Positions 28,084 through 57,797 of a DNA stretch of 64,000 nucleotides are shown one piece after another; position 1 is the first letter of the stretch; each line of letters opens with the position of its first letter. Position numbers and translations under genes: made by a program. The stretch covers positions 60,350,406 through 60,414,405 of the forward strand of contig NC_072897.1 in assembly GCF_027943255.1 (NCBI RefSeq), read 5' to 3'. The notes under the pieces are model-generated. The model was not told the DNA's origin. It did no database searches and saw only the letters and a program-made list of their open reading frames with translations. The DNA comes from Anastrepha obliqua (taxonomy: Eukaryota; Arthropoda; Insecta; Diptera; Tephritidae).

Positions 28084-28135
28084 GATAGTAGGTAAATAGT
28101 TAATTAGTATATTACTTTACGTATGTGTGTAGTTA

Positions 28136-28440
28136 GGTTTATTTGCCCATTGCACCAATTCCAGCTAAATAAGAGCTAAGTATGACCATTGTACGTCTGT
28201 GTATATTTTTCTGTGGCGCCATATTTCTGCAAGTATAACTTTATGCACGACGACAGAGGAAAAGAGACGGACTCTGTTGTCGAGTAAGGTCTGGTCGTAA
28301 GGCGCGGAATGCATAAGCGAAACAAAGAGAGCAATGGAATAATGATATGATGAAATTATTCAGACTCCGTTTCGTAAGTCCGTCAGGCGGTCGGTCAGTT
28401 GAGATTGCGCCTTGCAATGAGTGAAAACAACGTTCCGACA
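28136..28440 (+). repeat. 5' LTR of the Gypsy element
   Basis: It aligns with 35819-36179 from TTATTTGCCCATTG to GTTCCGACA, with one indel of about 45 bp near the end. The opening TGTCGCAGAATAGGC found in the other two LTR copies is missing. The internal region starts at 28441. Confidence 0.9.
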
Positions 28441-29380: not shown

Positions 29381-29868
29381 TATTTTGAGATTTTGTTGCA
29401 TGTTGTTATGGTTAAGTTTTTAAGTTCTGATGTGCTGATTAGCCGTTGATTCTTGGCCAGGACTTCGGTGTTTCAATGGACGCTGCTAAGTTTCAAATTT
29501 ATAGAACAAAAGAGGTGAATTTTTTAAATTCAACAGAATACGAAAATATTATAAGTTCCAAATTAATGATTCTGATAAAGTGGCCCTGGCTCATATTTTA
29601 AATTTATATTCTGATTCGTTTATTGACGGTATCCAGAGTCACGTGTCTCCACTGGACAGTTGGAAATAAGACTAATCGACCCACAAAGACGGTATAACGA
29701 CGCCCATACATGAGAAAAAATTGACGAATTACTGCAATCAAATATAATACGGCCAAGTTGTTCATCTTTTGTCAGTGCGGTGATGTTGGTTAAAAAAAAA
29801 ATGGCACTGATCGTCTTTGTGCTTATCGTATGTTGAACGATAATACAGTGGCAGGCAAATAATATCCG

Positions 29869-30985
29869 TTGCCTCTCATATCGGATCAAATTGCTAAACT
29901 ACGCGGTGTACGACATTTCTCATGTGTAGATATGGCAAGCGGGTTTTACCAAATCCCAGGACATGTGGATCGGATTGAGCGAACTGCATTTGTAACGCCT
30001 GAAGGGCAATATGAGTTTTTGACTATGCCTTTTGGTCTTAAAAATGCACCGTCTGTCTTCCAGCGGGCAATAATAATAAAAGCATTAGCAAATAATTTTG
30101 CCATCGTATACATCGATGATGTTTTGATTACAGCAGAAACCAAAGAAGAAGCATTAGACCGGTTGCAGATCGTGCTAGAAACTTTAAGTAAAGCTGGACT
30201 TTCCTTTAACATAACCAAATGTTCCTTTTATAAAACTATTATCGAGTACCTTGGGTTTGAAATTAGTCACGGAGAAATTAGGCCAAACGCTCGTAAAATT
30301 CAGGCATTAATAGGGTTACCACCGCCGCAATCTGTGACACAGTTAAGGCAATTTATCGGTTTGTCTTCCTTATTCCGGCAATTCGTTCCCGAGATATTCC
30401 CGATTTTCCGAGACATTAAAACCCTTGTACCACCTTACGTCAAAGAAAAATTCAAATTTCGTTTGGAAATCAGAGCATGAGCAAATACGATTAAAAATAA
30501 TATCGATACTAACACAAGCTCCAGTATTACTCATATTCGATCCTATCTTCTCAATAGAGTTGCATACAGATGCGAGACCAATTGGCTATGGAGCAATATT
30601 CCTGCATAAAATTGACAATAAGTCTCATGTAGTTGAATATTTCAGCAAATGTACATCGCCTGCTGAATCTAGATACCATTCGTATGAATTAGACATTAGC
30701 CGTAGTTAACGGTATCAAACATTTCCGTCATTATTTGCAGGCACGTAAATTTGTTGTTTATACGGACTGTAATTCTTTGAAATCAAGTCGTACAAAATTG
30801 GACTTAACTCCGAGAGTACATCACCATCTATGTGCTCTACAATCATTTGACTTTGATTTAGAGTATAGGAAAGGCGAACGAATGGCGCACGTCGACTTTC
30901 TATCACGAAATCCAGTGCCAGGAAAAAATAAAAACGTAAACAAAGTATCAGAAATGCGAATTAATTTGACGGAGGTAACCGATAA
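29869..30985 (+). pseudogene. Gypsy reverse transcriptase and RNase H
   Basis: 29869-30480 encodes RT with DMASGFYQI, TMPFGLKNAPSVFQR and the active-site box YIDD. It starts after upstream sequence that is broken. RNase H follows in shifted frames at 30425-30709 (HTDARPIGYGA, YHSYELD) and 30735-30985 (VYTDCNSLK; RMAHVDFLSRNP). Two frameshifts separate the three pieces. The RNase H/integrase linker is cut at 30985 by the CACTA-ended transposon and resumes at 34305. Confidence 0.88.
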
Positions 30986-31489
30986 CACTACTTTACACCA
31001 AAAATGGTCCTCGACCAAAAGGCGTTTTTTTAACTAATTTGAGGTCGCTGAAACCAAAAATGAATTTAATCTTTTTTTTAAAGAACGGTTTCCGAGATAT
31101 TCCCAAAAAACCTGTTTTTTGGGCAATAGTGCAGTTATTACCTGCAATCTCGAAAACAGTGCGTGCTATTTCTTTGAAGTGCATAAATTTTGAAAGGCAC
31201 ACATATAACCTACATGGCAATATATAATTCGTGTCAATGGAAGTCGTAGTTCTCGCAAAACAGCTGTTGAAAGTTAAAAAAAGGCATTTTTGACGTTTTT
31301 TGCTAAATTATCAAAGTTTATTAACTTTTTTCTGGAACAAAAAATTTTTTTACATCGACATAAGATAAGTTTTCTAAAAGACAATTTTCTCACCTACATT
31401 TGAAGCCTAAGTTTGTCTGAATCGACGAAAAATTGTAGAAGTTATGACCCATAAAGTCAACACGTGTGATTTTGCAGCTTTTGACTTGG

Positions 31490-33253
31490 CTATGTTTGAG
31501 GTCGAAAATACGCTTTTACTCTCGTACTTCTTCTTTTATGTTGCACGGAATCTTCACGAAGTTGCATCCAGCAGTAGTCGCTCATCATTTCTTGATCCCA
31601 AAAGCCCTCATAACGCTTTTCAATCGTAGCAATATCTTGATGAAATCGCTCGCCTTGTTCATCACTTTCAGCCCCCAAATTCGGAGGAAAAAAATCCAAA
31701 TGACTGTGAAGTAGGTGCATTTTTAACGACGTGCGAGCACCTGTTAACAAAAACAAAGTTAATTGTACTTTTTCCAATAATTTTCCAGTCAATTTATATG
31801 ATAAATATATTTTGGAGTATGTACGTTTTACAATACTAACCAATAGTTTTAAAGTATTTCATCATTATATGAATCAATTGACGGTCGTTGTTGCTCCTGT
31901 TGTTTCCCAAGAATCCATGAACAACTTTTTGGAAAGCTTTCCAAGCTTTAGCTTCGTAACTGTCAAGACATTGTTGAAATTCTGTGTCCGTAAACAATTT
32001 CTTTATCTGTGGACCGACGAATATACTCGCTTTGATTTTCTCTGTTGACAATCTTGGGAACTTGGTTTTCAAGTATTTAAGGGCTGTGTTTTCCGGTTTT
32101 TTTGCCAAAGCTTTCACAAAATTCTTCATTAGCCCAAGTTTTATATGCAAAGGGGGGAAAATAACTTTTTTTTCTCAACAAGTGCTTTTTTGGTAACGTT
32201 GTTTTTCCCCACGACATGCTCCACACGCTTCGGCCAAACTTGTTGAGTGAAATATTTGTCATCCGCTCTGCTATCCCAAAGACACAAAAAACAACTGTAT
32301 TTGGTATAGCCACCCTGCAGACCAGTCAGTAGAGCGACAACTTTCAAGTCACAACATATTTTCCAGTTATACGAACTGTAGTCAATTAATTGCAGTAGCT
32401 CTTTCATTGTCTCATAAGTTTCTTTGACATTCGTAGAATGAGCAACGGGGATCGATGGTTTCTTGTTGCCTTTGTGCAGTAAGACATCCTTAACACTATA
32501 CTTGCTACCATCAATGAATAGACGCCACTCATTTGGATCATGAGTTTCTCCAAGTGCCGCAAACAACTTATTAACATTATTGCAGTAGCAAAAATTTTCT
32601 GGTTTTGAGAAATACTGTTCGAAATTTTTATTGCGGTTTCGGTAATACGTTACGTTAGTACCTGATTCCAAATAACCGCGTTCCTGTAGACGTGAAGCTA
32701 GGAGTTCTGATTTTTCTTTCGATAAGTTGAGATCACGACATAAATCGTTTAATGCTCTCTGATTAATTGGCTCTGCCTTCTGACTCGATGTGCTTGGGGA
32801 ACTGCTGATATTCGAAATCGAAGCTGTTATTCATTGAGAACTGAGGGATTCTGCTTTTAGTGTTGGTGGTTCACGTTTTGGATATTGCGTAGAATGTGGT
32901 GCCGTTTTTGTCACTGATGATACGTCGGGATACGTAGCTTTGCTATATTTTCCTCCTCGAAGTTTAGTCAGGCAAAAATAGCAATCACTCACATGATCAA
33001 TAGGATTCCTCCACTCAAATGGCTTACCAAAAGATACGTATGACCGTGAGCCTTTGGCAAATTCGTTAAAACGTGCAAAACATGTAGCGCAGACAGAGTT
33101 TGGAGTCCACGTTTTCTCCATATCTTTTGCTCGTAAACCAAAATATTGCTCGTAAGCTGCTAGTAAATGCGTGGTCAGCTTTTTTCGAGCACTTTCTTTG
33201 AAGATATATAAACCACAAATAAAACAGAATTTATCTGGTGCGTGCTTGCACAT
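31490..33253 (-). pseudogene. putative transposase, zinc-binding N-terminus, one intron
   Basis: It starts at 33253 (MCKHAPDKFCFICG). Three CxxC pairs occur at residues 10/13, 55/58 and 91/94, suggesting a zinc-binding DNA-recognition domain. The later part has WRLFIDGSKYSVKDVLLH, WKICCDLKVVALL, CFLCLWDSRADDKYF and SDEQGERFHQDI, with acidic residues placed as in an RNase H-fold DDE core (inference). A 100-bp GT-AG intron (31741-31840) joins FKTIG to ARTSLKMHLLHSH in phase. Lesions are one in-frame TGA at about 32829 and one frameshift near 32150. Intact length would be about 550 residues. I recall similar unnamed proteins from many arthropod assemblies, but cannot check. Confidence 0.8.
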
Positions 33254-33297
33254 TTCAGTGTATTTTCTTATAACACAGATCTAAACAAAGAAAAACG

Positions 33298-33617
33298 AAG
33301 TAAGTTCTGCTCTAGTGCAAGGCGCAATCTCAACTGCCCGATCGCCTGACGGACTTACGAAAGGAGCCTGTATAATTTCATCATCTCATTATTCTATTGC
33401 TCTCTTTCTTTCACTTATGTATTCCGCGCCTTACGACCGGACCTTACTTGACAACAGAGTCCGTCTCTTTTCCTCTGTCGTCGTGCACAAATTTATACTT
33501 GCAGAAATATGGCGCCACCGAAAATTGTATACAGACGTACAATGGTCATACCTACAAGGCCATACCTTTTATTTAGCTCGAATTGGTACAATGGGCAAAT
33601 AAGCCTATTCTGCGACA
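33298..33617 (-). repeat. solo LTR of the same Gypsy family, nested in the CACTA-ended element
   Basis: This is the reverse complement of the LTR at 35819-36179, from TGTCGCAGAATAGGC (33617 leftwards) to about the AGAACTTACTT block (33298). The last 45 or so LTR bases are missing, and it is followed by a (TA)n tract. It lies upstream of the transposase start at 33253, between it and the right inverted arm. So the LTR family was mobile both before and after the CACTA-ended insertion. Confidence 0.9.
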
Positions 33618-34307
33618 TATATATATATATATATAAATATATATATCTATTTGTATGAAACAAATATTGTTTTTAATTATAGTGAGCCTAAGAACAGTTA
33701 TTTTGCGTGACTCAATACGCAGGCTGGCATGATTTACTTTTGTTCGAAACCGTATTGTATACATCAAAAGGATATATGACAGACGATGAAATTGTCTTCA
33801 TTCAAATAATATGTTATAACTTCTACAATTTTTCGTCGATTCAGACAAACTTAGGCTTCAAATGTAGGTGAGAAAATTGTCTTTTAGAAAACTTATCTTA
33901 TGTCGATGTAAAAAAATTTTTTGTTCCAGAAAAAAGTTAATAAACTTTGATAATTTAGTAAAAAACGTCAAAAATGCCTTTTTTTAACTTTCAACAGCTG
34001 TTTTGCGAAAACTACGACTTCCATTGACACGAATTATATATTGCCATGTAGGTTATATGTGTGCCTTTCAAAATTTATGCACTTCAAAAAATAGCACGCA
34101 CTGTTTTCGAGATTGCAGGTAATAACTGCACTATTGCCCAAAAAACCTGTTTTCTGCAAGTAACAGGTTTTTTGGGCCTATCTCGGAAACCGTTCTTTGA
34201 AAAAAAAATACAATTCATTTTTGGTTTCAGCGACCTCAAATTACTTAAAAAAAACGCTTTTTGGTTGAGGACCATTTTTGAAAGTGAAAAATTGTAAACT
34301 AGTGTAA

Positions 34308-35368
34308 TTGGTTGGTATCAGAACAACAGCGCGACACTGAAATACTAGACATATTAACGAAACTCAAAAATAATGAACTGTCCGAAAATTTAGACAAGAC
34401 CTATGACTCCCGAAAAGGAATATGGCACAGAAAAATACAGCGAAAGGGTAAAACAAAATGCTTACCGGTAAATCCAAGGAGTTTTAGATGGGCAGTCATA
34501 AATCACGTACACGAATCTATTATGCACCTCGGATGGGAGAAAACGTTAGACAAGGTCTATAGTAGCTATTGGTTCGAAAATATGTCAAAATACGTATGAC
34601 GATTTGTAGACAATTGCATCACCTGTGAAGTATCAAAGCCACTTCCTTGAGAAATTCCGTGGCACACCATACATATTGATATAACTGGTAAACTGAGCGG
34701 GAAACACGATGTGAAAGAGTACTTCATAGTACTAATAGATGGTTTTACAAAGTTTGTGTATTTTTACCACACCTTGAATAAAGATACTGAAAGTTGTATC
34801 AAGGCAGTAAAATAAGCTGCGTCAATATTCGGTTTACCCACAAGGATACTCGCGGATCAAGGTCGCTGTTTTGCGAGTGCAGGTTTTCGCGAATTCTGTC
34901 CTTCTCCAAAGATTAATTTGCATTTAATTGCAACAGAGGCCAGTAGAGCCAATGGCCAAGTTGAAAGCGTAATGAGTACACTCAAAAATATGTTGACGGC
35001 CGTAGAAACCAGTCAAAGACCGTGGTAGGATTCGCAAGGATGTTAGACCTTTTCGTTTGCTGCCAATAATCGAAGAAGATGACAATGACTTAGATAGGGA
35101 TAATTTAAGAAAGCAGGTAAAGCGAAATATGGAAGAAAACGCACGATTTGATAAATACAGGTTTGGTAAAAATAAAGCAACAATTATTAAACACAACGTT
35201 GGTGATCATGTATTACTTAAAAACGAAGAGCGTCACCAAACTAAACCAGATCCAAAATTTAAAGGTCCATTTGAAATAATTGAAGTATTAGATGGACCCC
35301 GATACATACTGAAATCTTTAAGTAGTAAGCGAACTTATAAATACTCGCACGAATTTTTAAGAGCATGA
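34308..35368 (+). pseudogene. Gypsy integrase
   Basis: 34312-34599 carries the His-binding part of the zinc domain (HVHESIMHLGWEKT). After a stop the sequence continues at 34600-35040 with CITCEV, HIDITGKL (first Asp), LADQGRCF (second Asp) and ANGQVESV (Glu), the DDE core, with several stops. 35057-35368 is the C-terminal region (HNVGDHVLLKNEE, KFKGPFEIIEVLD). The enzyme would insert the cDNA. Stops at about 34598, 34813 and 35026 inactivate it. Confidence 0.85.
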
Positions 35369-35818: not shown

Positions 35819-36179
35819 TGTCGCAGAATAGGCTTATTTGCCCATTGTACCAATTTCAGCTAAATAAGAGCTAAGTATGACCATTGTACGTTTGTGTATA
35901 TGTTTCGGTGGCGCTATATTTCTGCAAGTAAACTTTGTGCACGACGACAGAGGAAAAGAGACGGACTCTGTTGTCGAGTAAGGTCTGGTCGTAAGGCACG
36001 GAATACATAAGTGGAACAAAGAGAGCAATAGAACAATGAGATGATAAAATTATTCAGGCTCCGTTTCGTAAGTCCGTCAGGCGGTCGGTCAGTTGAGATT
36101 ACGACAAGGGCAGAACTTACTTGCATAAAGTGTCAAATTTGCCAAAAAAAGAATAATGAGTGAAAACAACGTTCCGACA
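35819..36179 (+). repeat. 3' LTR of the Gypsy element
   Basis: It begins TGTCGCAGAATAGGC and ends GTTCCGACA, giving the usual TG...CA ends. It is longer than the 5' copy by an internal segment (GACAAGGGCAGAACTTACTT region) also partly present in the solo copy at 33298-33617. Arm X resumes immediately at 36180. Confidence 0.92.
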
Positions 36180-51019: not shown

Positions 51020-51260
51020 TTATAGTTTAGCGCAATCGTGAAAGACGTGTCGTATACGCGTACATTGTCCCATATTTGACTCAGGTTCAAGTCCTGTACA
51101 GACTTTTCTTTGTTCGATATTTTTACTGAATTTTTTGTATTTGGTTTAATTAATAGAATTGATTTAAAATAGTGCATTCAGCTTTTCTAATACCTGTTAT
51201 TTATAAATTTATTTTCTACATATATAAAATTATTCATACTTCTTTGGATTGATTTATATG
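51020..51260 (+). mobile_element. possible tRNA-like SINE head within the arm
   Basis: TAGCGCAATCG at 51028 resembles an A-box, and GGTTCAAGTCCTG at 51086 a B-box. The spacing is about 58 bp. The same block occurs inverted in the other arm (60430-60510). It could be a tRNA-derived SINE fixed in the arm, or a chance tRNA-like word. No separate target duplication was seen. Confidence 0.4.
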
Positions 51261-51514
51261 TAAAACAGCCATAAAGGCAATGCACATGAATGTGCATTCA
51301 TATATGTATGTACATATGTATTTAATCTTTTCAGTCAAATCTGAACTACTTACATACACATATTGATGAGAAAATGTTCTAATATCCATGGATGCATCCA
51401 GAAAGCCAAACGCGCATACACTCATGTGTATATACGAACGCAAAATGTATGCATATAAAAAACAACAACTGCGACCGTCTTCTTGTCCGTCAGTGAAAAG
51501 ATGGGATATGTATA

Positions 51515-51932
51515 CCCTATGAGCAAAACGAACCGGGAAGGTGATGTTGACTGTTTTCTTCGATTGCCAAGCCATAGTCCACCATGACTACCTTCCATCG
51601 GGCCAGGCAGTCAATAAAGAATATTATTTATCCGTTTTGAAGCCATTGAGAGATGCTGTATGTTGCGAACGGCCGGAAATGTGAACAAAAAATTCTTGGA
51701 TTTTGCGTGATGATAACGCGCAATCGCACCGATCAAAGAGATCAAAGAGAATACGACGAAGGAGCTGAAGGTCATGTAGGCCTACCAGGGCTGTTTGAAG
51801 GACTGGGTTAAACGTTGGCACATGTGTGTTGCTTCAGACGGGTCATATTTTGAAGGAGATAATATAAATTTGCCTGAAATTTAACTCTGTTATGTTGTAT
51901 TTAAACATTCCCGGTACGTTTTGATCATAGGG
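51515..51932 (-). mobile_element. 418-bp mariner derivative in left arm
   Basis: Ends are CCCTATGAGCAAAACG (51515) and the complement of CCCTATGATCAAAACG (51932), with TA at 51513-51514 and 51933-51934. On the plus strand (sense of the transposase) it has IVHHDYLPSGQAVNKEYY, WILRDDNAQSHRSK and, after a deletion, KRWHMCVASDGSYFEGDN. These are mariner transposase pieces around the second catalytic Asp and at the C-terminus. The partner at 56780-57197 is also 418 bp. Confidence 0.9.
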
Positions 51933-53803
51933 TACATATATGCGGCTTTGCGGACAGAAATGTGTGATTCCCTGGATTTGTTCAAGGAATCTAAGTTGCA
52001 TTAACTCGCGACTGTCGAACAGTTAGAAGACATATTTACATACATGTAAGGGTGCATACATACATACGGACCCGCGTCCACTCGACATGACAAAAATTCA
52101 AGATTTATCAAATATTGGCAAATATTATAATTCTACGCGAAATATTCCAATATTGACTATTTTCTAATGGTCGCGAAAATTGGCATATGGGCGGCTCGTT
52201 TTATGAATGAAATTGAAATATGAGCTCGAACTTATGAATGAACTTTTTGTTTTTGTTCTAAATTGTTCAGCGCCATCGCTGATAGAATCATGGCCGCTGC
52301 GACTGCGTCTACGAATGTATTTTGTTTTTTTAGTCGCTAGGCTTAGATTTTAGCTTTGGGCGACATGCGCATGTGAGGTATATGTTTTTGTTGCGTTCTA
52401 GAACATTTTAGAATGTGTGGTGGCAAAGCGGCCATCGCGTTGCGCTTGCTGTTCCTTTTGCGTCTATCAAAGTATTGTGTTTTTGTAAGTACAATATTAG
52501 GAATATCGACTGGTGAAAGACAAAAGTACACGGAAGCAAGAAGGGAGGGCTGTGCTCGCGCATATATGCATGAATGTATGAACATGCATGGATGTAGTAA
52601 CATATGAATACAATTATTTTGTGGGAAGTTTAGAAGGCAAGTAAGTATATACATATGTATGTATATATGCTAGGACATAAAGTGGGTATATATACATACA
52701 TAGAGCAGAATTGTTTTTGCACTTGTTAGGAAGAAACTCATTCACTAGTGGTATGTGTATTTGATTTCTTGTAAGAATGTGATGTGCTGTGACATGTGTA
52801 CATACATAAGTCAAGGTTATTGGGCATACATGCATATGTACATATGTATGAAAGGAAGATGATGTTCTTGCGCTTGTGCATTATTGTTTTTCATATACAA
52901 ATGTACATACATACATATGTACATATGTAAATGCTGTCGAATACATAAACTATAAATTGACATACAATATAAAATAAGTGTTGATTTATCTTAAACCGTT
53001 ATTTTTTTCTGAATGCAAATACCTCCTATTGACATGTACATACATATTATGTACTTATATTGTCATATACCATCATTTATGTACATATAGAGTATACGTT
53101 TATTTATGAATGTATGTAATGAAAAACTTCATGAATTACTTTCAGAATTTATTAAAACTTATTCGCGTTGCGCGCATACCTATCTACGTAGACATCACAA
53201 ACCTTTTGTTCACAACGCAGGCGCAGAAACAAACGCTCTGCGTATTTATCCTCCCCATGTGACTCGCCATCAATTCTCGGCGCCAATTTATTTGTTTTTT
53301 CTTTTTTAAATTTTTTTTTTTCTAATGTAATCGTAAAAAAATTTGTAATAAATTTTATGTATCCGCTTATCATTTCAAAAGTAACAAAATGGAAAAAAAT
53401 AAGCAGACGAAGAAATAAACACACCGCCAATTTTTCCTCGCCACATGTTAGACTCGATATCAATTCCCGGCGCCAACTTTTTTTTTTAATTAGTTTTTTT
53501 TAATGTAATTGAAAAAAAATTTGGTGTAATAAATTTTACGTATTCGCTTATTATTTAAAAATACGAAAATAGTAAAAATTTAATTGGTTTAATGTCGAGG
53601 TGAGAAATGTGTTGTGTGTTGAGGTGAAAGATGTGTGGTGATTTCAATTTTTGTGTGGGCAAAACTCAGTGTGGTGTCTATAAACTCGGTGTGCTAAATT
53701 TCCTTGCTACAAATCTTTCAAATTTCAATTGTACTAAAAAAAGCTCACAGTAACATTTGCACCTTCTCATTGCATTAACATTATCTGCTAAAATGTATGT
53801 GTA

Positions 53804-54935: not shown

Positions 54936-57491
54936 TTTCATGAGAAGGTGCAAATGTTACTGTGAGCTTTTTTTAGTACAATTGAGATTTGAAAGATTTG
55001 AAGTAAGGGAATTTAGCACACCGAGTTTATAGACACCTCGCTGACTTTTCCCCACACAAAAATTAGAAACACCACACATCTTTCACCTCAACACACAACA
55101 CATTTCTCACCTCGACATTAAATCAATTAAATTTTTACTATTTTCGTATTTTTTAAATAATAAGCGAATAAATAAAATTTATTACATAATTTATTTTTTC
55201 AATTACATTAAAAAAAACGAATTTAAAAAAAAAAGAATTAATAAAAAAAGTTTTCGCCGGGAATTAAAATCGAGTCTAACATGTGGCGAGGAAAAATTGG
55301 CGGTGCGTTTATTTCTTCGGCTGCTTATTTTTTTACCATTTTGTTTCTTTTGAAATGATAAGTGGATACATAAAATTTATTACAAATTTTTTTACGATTA
55401 CATTAAAAAAAAAAAATTTAAAAACGAAAAAAAAAAAATTTGCGCCGAGATTGATGGCGAGTCACGTGGGGAGGATAAATACGCAGAGCGTTTGTTTCTG
55501 CACCTGCGTTGTGAACAAAAGGTTTGTGATGTCTACGTAGATAGGTATGCGCGCAACGCGAATAAGTTTTAATAAATTCTGAAAGTAATTCATGAAGTTT
55601 TTCATTACATACATTCATAAATAAACGTATACTCTATATGTACATAAATGATGGTATATGACAATATAAATACATAATATGTATGTACATGTCAATAGGA
55701 GGTATTTGCATTCAGAAAAAAATAACGGTTTAAGATAAATCAACACTTATTTTATATTGTATGTCAATTTATAGTTTATGTATTCGACAGCATTTACATA
55801 TGTACATATGTATGTATGTACATTTGTATATGAAAAACAATAATGCACAAGCGCAAGAACCTCATCTTCCTTTCATACATATGTACATATGCATGTATGC
55901 CCAATAACCTTGACTTATAAATATATGTACACATGTCACAGCACATCACATTCTTACAAGAAATCAAATACACATACGTACTAGTGAACGAGTTTCTTCC
56001 TAACAAGTGCAAAAACAATTCTGCTCTATGTATGTATATATACCCACTTTATGTCCTAGCATGTATACATACATATATACCTACTTGCCTTCTAAACTTC
56101 CCACAAAATAATTGTATTTATATGTTACTACATCCATGCACGTTCATACATTCATGCATACATATATGCGCGAGCACAGCCCTCCCTTCTTGCTTCCGTG
56201 TACTTTTGTCTTTCACCAGTCGATATTCCTAATATTGTACTTACAAAAACACAATACTTTGATAGACGCAAAAGCAACAGTAAGCGCAACGCGCCACCAC
56301 ACATTCTAAAATGTTCTAGAACACAACAAAAACACATACCTCACATGCGCATGTCGCCCAAAGCTAAAATCTAAGCCTAGCGACTACAAAAACAAAATAC
56401 ATTCGTAGACGCAGTCGCAGCGGCCATGATTCTATCAGCGATGGCGTTGAACAATTTAGAACAAAAACAAAAAGTTCATTCATAAGTTCGAGCTCATATT
56501 TCAATTTCATTCATAAAACGAGCCGCCCATATGCCAATTTTCGCGACCATTCGAAAATAGTCAATATTGGAATATTTCGCGTGGAATTATTTGCCAATAT
56601 TTGATAAATCTTGAATTTTTGTCAAATCGAGTGGCCGCGGCTCCGTATGTATGTAGGCACACATATATGTATGTAAATATGTCTTCTAACTGTTCGACAG
56701 TCGCGAGTTAATGCGACTTAGATTCCTTGAACAAATCCAGGGAATCACACATTTCTGTCCGCAAAGCCGCATATATGTACCCTATGATCAAAACGTACCG
56801 GGAATGTTTAAATAAAACATAACGGAGTTAAATTTCAGGCAAAGTTATATTATCTCCTTCAAAATATGACCCGTCTGAAGCAACACACATGTGCCATCGT
56901 TTAACCCAGTCCTCCAAACACCCCCGGCAGGCCGACATGGCCTTCAGCTCCTTCGTCGTATTCTCTTTGATCTCTTTGATCGGTGCGATAGCACGTTATC
57001 ATCACGCAAAATCTGAGAATTGTTTGTTCACATTTCCGGCCGTCCGCAACATACAGCATCTCTCAATGGCTTCAAAACGGATAAATAATATTCTTTATTG
57101 ACTGCCTGGCCCGATGGAAGGTAGTCATGGTGGACTATGCCTTGGCAATCGAAGAAAACAGTCAACATCACCTTCCCGGTTCGTTTTGCTCATAGGGTAT
57201 ACATATCCCATATTTTCACTGACGGACAGGAAGACGGTCGCAGTTGTTGTGTTTTGTATGCATACATTTTGCGTTCGTTGAAGGTTTGTAAATATTTATA
57301 TATATTTATATACATATGCGTGTATGCGCGTTTGGCTTTCTGGATGCATCCATGGATATTAGAATATTTTCTCATCAATATGTGTATGTAAGTAGTTCAG
57401 ATTTGACTGAAGAGATTAAATATAGGAATGCATATTCATATGATTGCCTTTATGGCTGTTTTACATATAAATTCAAAAAGAGTATGAATAA
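54936..57491 (+). repeat. large palindrome, right arm (copy C, proximal)
   Basis: It starts ATGAGAAGGTGCAAATGTTA, the same point as the loop-proximal end of copy A (45825). It matches copy B inverted throughout, and copy A up to the deletion. It has no piggyBac, so it gives the empty site for that element. It is interrupted at 57491 by a Helitron; it continues at 60307-60708 and 62354-62384. Confidence 0.9.
56780..57197 (+). mobile_element. 418-bp mariner derivative in right arm
   Basis: Ends CCCTATGATCAAAACG (56780) and the complement of CCCTATGAGCAAAACG (57197), TA at 56778-56779 and 57198-57199. It is nearly identical to 51515-51932 in inverse orientation. The internal deletion joint is the same, so both descend from one insertion or from one MITE subfamily. 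Confidence 0.92.
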
Positions 57492-57797
57492 TCTATATAT
57501 ATAAAAATGAAATGATGTTCGTTTGTACGCATTTTTTTGGGCCGATACGAGGCCAATTTTATTCATTCTTTTTTCATATTATAGGGATCCACTAGGGGAA
57601 GGTTTTTAGCAAAAAAAAATTTCTTTTAAATATTTTCTTCATATAAAAAAAAGAAAAAATCAAAATATTGTACAAAACAAAACTTGCTCGATTCTTAGAT
57701 TAAAGTAAGTTTCGAATCGACATAAATTTTATGTGTACAACTTTTTTTGAATTTTTCGTTATTGTATACAGAAATTTCAAATGATTCGAATGAAATT

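Follow-up and report, generated by a model that had tools for sequence, protein, structure and literature searches.

Unequal ends with 13-bp and 24-bp spacings in a probable Chapaev3-type transposon family of Anastrepha obliqua

We analysed a stretch of 64,000 nucleotides of the Anastrepha obliqua genome (assembly GCF_027943255.1, contig NC_072897.1, positions 60,350,406 to 60,414,405 of the forward strand), hereafter the window, in which a transposon of 3,319 base pairs (bp) occupies positions 30986-34304. With a probability of roughly 85%, a figure that covers its kind and its mode of movement, this element is a Chapaev3-type cut-and-paste DNA transposon of the CACTA/Mirage/Chapaev (CMC) group. 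Elements of this kind have been described before, and what appears new is the fixed pair of unequal ends, in which two sequence boxes are separated by 13 bp on one side and by 24 bp on the other. The novelty of its N-terminal domain, which weakly resembles the ZAD (zf-AD) domain of insect zinc-finger transcription factors, is less firm.

The transposon starts with CACTA and finishes with TAGTG, and is flanked by two copies of a TAA target-site duplication, the left one (30983-30985) being preceded by A and the right one (34305-34307) followed by T. Its long arms (30999-31448 on the plus strand and 33813-34280 on the minus strand) align as inverted repeats with 93% identity over 469 columns (E value 0.0), well beyond chance. 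Direct reading and recomputation bore out the initial annotation of this DNA, which had described CACTA termini, a TAA duplication, arms of about 470 bp and a minus-strand gene with three CxxC pairs and a 100-bp intron. The element is inserted in a Gypsy pol gene. Upstream (29863-30985, plus strand), the pol pieces are open frames with Pfam matches to reverse transcriptase and RNase H, and downstream (34308-35368, plus strand), an open frame is observed. The upstream frame is open to the insertion point, and on the other side the flank continues as an open frame in the register to be expected if the element and one TAA were absent; by position arithmetic and separate translation of each flank, the earlier claim that their removal restores the host frame holds. 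The position had also been called datable, which is correct insofar as the insertion postdates the Gypsy copy, and goes no further than this relative age.

The transposon is a member of a real mobile family, because dispersed genomic copies were matched by searches with both an arm and the coding part. The search with one arm gave at least 44 matching stretches (83-100% identity) and that with the coding part at least 49 (90-100% identity), 40 of 414 and 40 of 238 candidates being scored, respectively, and several stretches may be one copy. Identical TWA trinucleotides were computed on both sides of 9 of 13 two-ended copies, all nine, including the window copy, in the context A-TWA-T. Copy C1:18291366 has TTA on both sides. 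Where flanks were read by eye, the duplications match in C6:66023410, L050, L051, L052, L053 and L063 and do not match in L054 and L060. Checking other copies for their ends and 3-bp duplications, as had been suggested, gave a favourable outcome: CAC is kept at most copy ends and decayed at some, and 16 of the 22 two-ended copies counted, which leave out L025, have identical TWA, in A-TWA-T in 15 of these 16 (L053 is without the T). That the gene is instead a host or domesticated gene, as the annotation of some relatives as genes in NCBI records might suggest, has next to no chance of being correct and is already refuted for the window copy: we rejected it on account of the dozens of dispersed copies, the target duplications and the decayed frames (in the window copy and in copies L011, L014 and L023), to which the insertion inside a Gypsy gene can be added.

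The transposase gene of the window copy lies on the minus strand. The first exon comprises an N-terminal piece (32831-33253) with the three CxxC pairs (CFIC, CATC and CYFC) of a ZAD-like or Chapa-like zinc domain, which ends at an in-frame stop, a middle piece (32141-32830) with two catalytic D residues and CFLC, corresponding to C(2)C, and a last piece (31841-32174) with PPLHIKLG, corresponding to the LH motif, in a frame unlike that of the middle piece. It is followed by an intron (31741-31840, GTTAGT...TTAACAG), whose splicing is predicted from the sequence, and by a second exon (31490-31740) with HLLHSH, corresponding to H(4)H, and DEQGERF, which contains the catalytic E. The GT...AG gap is exactly 100 bp long, and the protein of aligned relatives runs across it unbroken (alignment A1). 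The gene is broken twice, by the in-frame stop between the open reading frames (ORFs) 33280-32831 and 32830-32141 and by a frame change where 32830-32141 overlaps 32174-31836. Frames are also broken in the three other copies inspected (L011, L014 and L023), and the window element is a defective copy of a mobile element.

The middle transposase piece has 560 protein matches at E <= 0.001, the best among the matches listed being a protein of Rhagoletis zephyria (80% identity over 89% of the query). A natural relative that includes the N-terminus, P0080, has 2,641 protein matches, many of which, among the matches listed, are 552-565 amino acids long. The listed matches are named 'uncharacterized protein' or 'hypothetical protein', in agreement with the remark in the initial annotation that this protein is usually left uncharacterised. 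We aligned 17 full-length relatives (alignment A2) and, for the N-terminus, 40 relatives with the window piece (alignment A3). In the relative P0122, the motifs are D254, D308, C327-x2-C330, H376 (in PLH), H484-x4-H489 and E506, each of which is invariant in all 17 aligned relatives; their window counterparts are LFIDGSK, CCDLKVV, CFLC, PPLHIKLG, HLLHSH and DEQGERF. The catalytic D, D and E had been placed at the first, second and last of these counterparts, where the corresponding residues are indeed invariant (17/17). In these alignments, the CMC transposase signature is complete. The structure model of a transposase relative shows a predicted RAG1/Transib fold, which answers favourably the suggestion to fold the protein with a structure predictor. 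No Pfam family was matched above cut-off by the transposase pieces or the relatives, a search of the PDB by sequence gave no match, and no relative was present among the viral contigs (46 pattern matches) and prokaryote genome contigs (40) compared with the profile of alignment A2.

These features correspond to those reported for Chapaev3 elements, in particular Merrow, Garfield and Conan, in PMC4079192: CAC...GTG ends, TWA duplications between A and T, and a transposase with the order D-D-C(2)C-LH-H(4)H-E. The window element has CACTA...TAGTG termini and a TWA duplication between A and T, and the DDE residues with C(2)C, LH and H(4)H are found in 17 of 17 aligned relatives and in the window pieces. 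The genes of Merrow and Garfield have two exons, as here, and Garfield_BM encodes 556 amino acids, the length of P0122; the element itself measures 2,289 bp in Garfield_BM and 3,319 bp here, where the arms reach about 470 bp (PMC4079192). The assignment to Chapaev3 is made by published descriptions of ends, duplication and motifs. The motifs and the fold of the relative agree with the initial annotation insofar as it placed a DDE transposase in the CACTA/Mirage/Chapaev group. In contrast, its view of an unassigned, under-described family falls by the very test it had named, a match to a named superfamily (here by description), since both the Chapaev3 features and the Chapa domain discussed below are described in the literature. 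A CACTA/EnSpm element proper would share the CACTA ends, the 3-bp duplication and the motifs common to the CMC clade; it is nevertheless very unlikely, as a TWA strictly between A and T, the LH motif, the size of the relatives (556 amino acids in P0122) and, more tentatively, the N-terminal zinc domain fit the description of Chapaev3. C(2)C and H(3-4)H are reported for the whole EnSpm-Mirage-Chapaev-Transib clade and RAG1 (PMC12730594), and the family shares with Transib and with RAG1 and RAG-like recombinases the predicted catalytic fold, the C(2)C and H(4)H motifs and the CAC ends. Membership in Transib was rejected because the duplication is a 3-bp TWA and not 5 bp long, while the kinship of fold is kept.

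Each end of this family combines a terminal box, CACTAGTTTAC, with an A-rich block further in, CAAAAATGG, the two being 13 bp or 24 bp apart. In the window, the short-spaced end (30986-31016, plus strand) has the terminal box CACTACTTTAC and the inner block CAAAAATGGTCCTCGACC, beginning after 13 bp, and the long-spaced end (34263-34304, minus strand) has the terminal box CACTAGTTTAC and the inner block CAAAAATGGTCCTCAACC, beginning after 24 bp; read from the outside inwards, the left end is CACTACTTTACAC followed by CAAAAATGG and the right end CACTAGTTTACAATTTTTCACTTT followed by CAAAAATGG. Among 70 ends scored, 35 have a distance of 13, 33 of 24, one of 23 (L038) and one of 11 (L061). They come from three batches with, naming 13-bp ends before 24-bp ends, 18 and 19 ends, 6 and 4 ends plus the one at 23, and 11 and 10 ends plus the one at 11. 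Of the 46 rows of the first batch, the count includes the 37 whose terminal box has no more than 3 mismatches and leaves out 9 with 4-6; of the 24 rows of the third, it leaves out two that are not close to any arm (at distances of 28 and 21, each with 3 mismatches). The search covered box distances of 8-39 bp, and blocks with many changes or an insertion or deletion (indel) would be missed; no end was detected in 9 of 20 small regions. The end at L049, a repeat of that at L047, was counted once, and one early comparison of copies used the element one base short on the left. Four of the eighteen 13-bp ends of the first batch belong to consecutive copies at a single locus (L026, 3061-5870), where they share the same 12-bp flank and are about 936 bp apart. 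This locus is a tandem array that developed from a single insertion and may be a nascent satellite; a tandem-repeat scan with periods of up to 500 found none there.

One short-spaced and one long-spaced end are present in all 23 two-ended copies (14 copies, a further seven, namely L050-L054, L060 and L063, and finally C1:18291366 and C6:66023410), an arrangement like that of a 12/23-type pair. The long end of C6:66023410 is at 23, and that of L025, damaged by small changes and unscored by the box search, was typed from the arm alignment. Relative to the axis running from the 13-bp to the 24-bp end, the interior is oriented as in the window in 16 copies and flipped in 7 (L013, L016, L017, L020, L021, L050 and L051), the direction in C1:18291366 and C6:66023410 being judged by position; a short piece in the same direction is also present in L017 and L021, which were counted as flipped. 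Since 7 of the 23 copies are flipped and yet all have one end of each kind, the arms recombine and the interior turns while the end types stay paired. We rejected a fixation of the end types to sides by the direction of the gene, as L047/L049 has its 24-bp end on the gene's left side and several copies have a flipped interior. The rule that holds is one short and one long end per element, on no fixed side. No paper joining Chapaev with unequal ends was found in the literature searched, which did not extend to subscription papers and Repbase Reports, and the accessible part of PMC4079192 does not mention a 13/24 spacing for Chapaev3.

The evidence on spacing comes from one family in one genome, whose offset of 11 bp may or may not be selected. 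It is fairly probable that it is an accident of the family founder, in which an 11-bp indel arose in one arm and has been copied since, the transposase being indifferent to spacing. Several points weigh for this explanation and against a selected offset: all copies belong to one family; flips by arm recombination keep one end of each kind without selection; the flips are not all independent, as one internal deletion is common to at least three of the flipped copies (L017, L020 and L021); and the terminal heptamer of long ends shows 8.1% substitutions. Other observations are less easily reconciled with it. In the 11 copies with both arms, only the 11-bp segment and the adjacent base separate the two end types within the arm, so that exchange between arms did not reach the tips; beyond this segment, the similarity between arms is equal (0.92-0.94) whether their end types agree or differ, the remaining arm being without such a signal. 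The inner arms of the window copy are 0.994 alike, the highest value of the 11 copies, which suggests a conversion tract stopping short of the tip. Substitutions in long ends (n=30) amount to 7.6% in the spacer, 5.0% in the arm and 2.6% in the inner block, and in short ends (n=26) to 3.8% in the spacer, 3.4% in the block and 6.6% in the arm. The long spacer differs in sequence (variants TTTACAATTTTTCACTTT, TTTACGAATTTTCACTTT and TTTCCAAATTTTCAGTTT) and has the same length in 30 of 30 aligned long ends. Spacer indels number 0 in 666 cells, or 2 if L038 and L061 are added, against about 6 expected at the arm rate of 0.88 per 100, a rough comparison given that indels of the arms tend to lie in T-runs and that nothing restrains decay in dead copies. 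These spacer figures are from 57 arms, without the 11 ends of the second batch and three L026 ends and with L049 added, L038 and L061 standing outside the groups. Taken together, the substitution and indel comparison leans towards a constraint on length without proving it.

From the ends, their spacings, the target site, the duplication, the motifs and the predicted fold, all obtained directly in the analysis, we infer the cutting, the pairing of unlike ends and the role of the N-terminal domain as follows. By analogy with RAG and Transib and from the fold, a dimer of the RAG1-fold transposase would cut at the CAC of both ends. Of the two boxes at each end, the terminal CACTAGTTTAC would be the cutting place, and the 24-bp end places the inner A-rich block about one helical turn further away than the 13-bp end. 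The dimer may bring together a short-spaced and a long-spaced end, much as RAG combines a 12RSS with a 23RSS (RSS, recombination signal sequence), the N-terminal zinc domain helping to dimerise and to hold the inner block. Insertion with a 3-bp stagger into an A-TWA-T site, here inside Gypsy pol, would then duplicate TWA. That the pairing of unlike ends is required is possible by analogy with RAG (12/23) and ProtoRAG (27/31), though doubtful. RAG and a few Transibs have a 12/23 offset of 11 bp, the same as here (PMC8355894 and PMC8289069). Both differ in their 5-bp duplication, compared with 3 bp here, and the absolute box distances are shorter in this family; the reading of CAAAAATGG as nonamer-like is our own, and the absolute distances differ from those of RSSs. 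No RAG2 partner gene is seen in the window element. ProtoRAG of amphioxus likewise has two-box ends and a functional preference for unlike ends, and differs in its spacers of 27/31, its two genes and its 5-bp duplication (PMC8289069).

The Cys pairs of the N-terminal domain (window 32834-33253, minus strand) are invariant among relatives (alignment A3). By Pfam and by fold, this Cys-rich domain weakly resembles the insect ZAD domain, the match to Pfam zf-AD reaching 22.9 bits, under the curated cut-off of 28; RAG1_imp_bd of Pfam was matched by 1 of 41 sequences, at an E value of only 0.092. The initial annotation had held that proteins of this group do not begin with a CxxC-rich domain, which is contradicted by PMC4411706, where a complex zinc finger named the 'Chapa' domain is reported for the transposases of both Chapaev and Chapaev3 and as part of the RAG1 N-terminus. 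In the accessible part of PMC9810180, the mention of a transposase concerns THAP and not ZAD.

Other observations concern the copies and their surroundings. An internal deletion (element positions ~1149 to ~2487) is common to L015, L017, L019, L020, L021, L024, L025, L055, L060 and L062-L064 and marks out a shorter, non-autonomous subfamily, whose interior occurs in either direction. A dispersed repeat of about 300 bp occurs three times in the window, inside the transposon (33298-33617) and at 28134-28416 and 35819-36122. Since ORFs in copies L011 and L023 contain the same repeat, the transposon probably carried it before the family spread. Copy L014 has an insertion in its intron region (2314-2961) with an ORF of 215 amino acids, which we take to be part of a Helitron protein, and the near full-length copy L023 adjoins an ORF (362-739) with a VTGDEKW motif, presumably mariner-like. 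Separate from the transposon, the window contains a 2.6-kb inverted repeat (51207-53770 and 54940-57513) with 92% identity.

The finding bears on the origin of the 12/23 rule of V(D)J recombination. According to a review (PMC8355894), no other transposition is known to have 12/23 asymmetry apart from that of some Transibs. A family of Chapaev3 type whose offset is exactly 11 bp would represent a further, distant branch of the same fold, and a small one-gene element would make the origin of the 12/23 rule testable. In its broadest form, the proposal is that Chapaev3-type transposases follow a 12/23-like rule of their own, in which a RAG1-fold dimer uses a 13-bp and a 24-bp end, so that one-turn pairing would be older than, or separate from, the RAG/Transib branch, and that ZAD descends from, or is a sister of, their N-terminal zinc domain; we consider this unlikely to hold in full. 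If the N-terminal domain is ZAD-like, it would also point to where a domain of many insect transcription factors may have come from.
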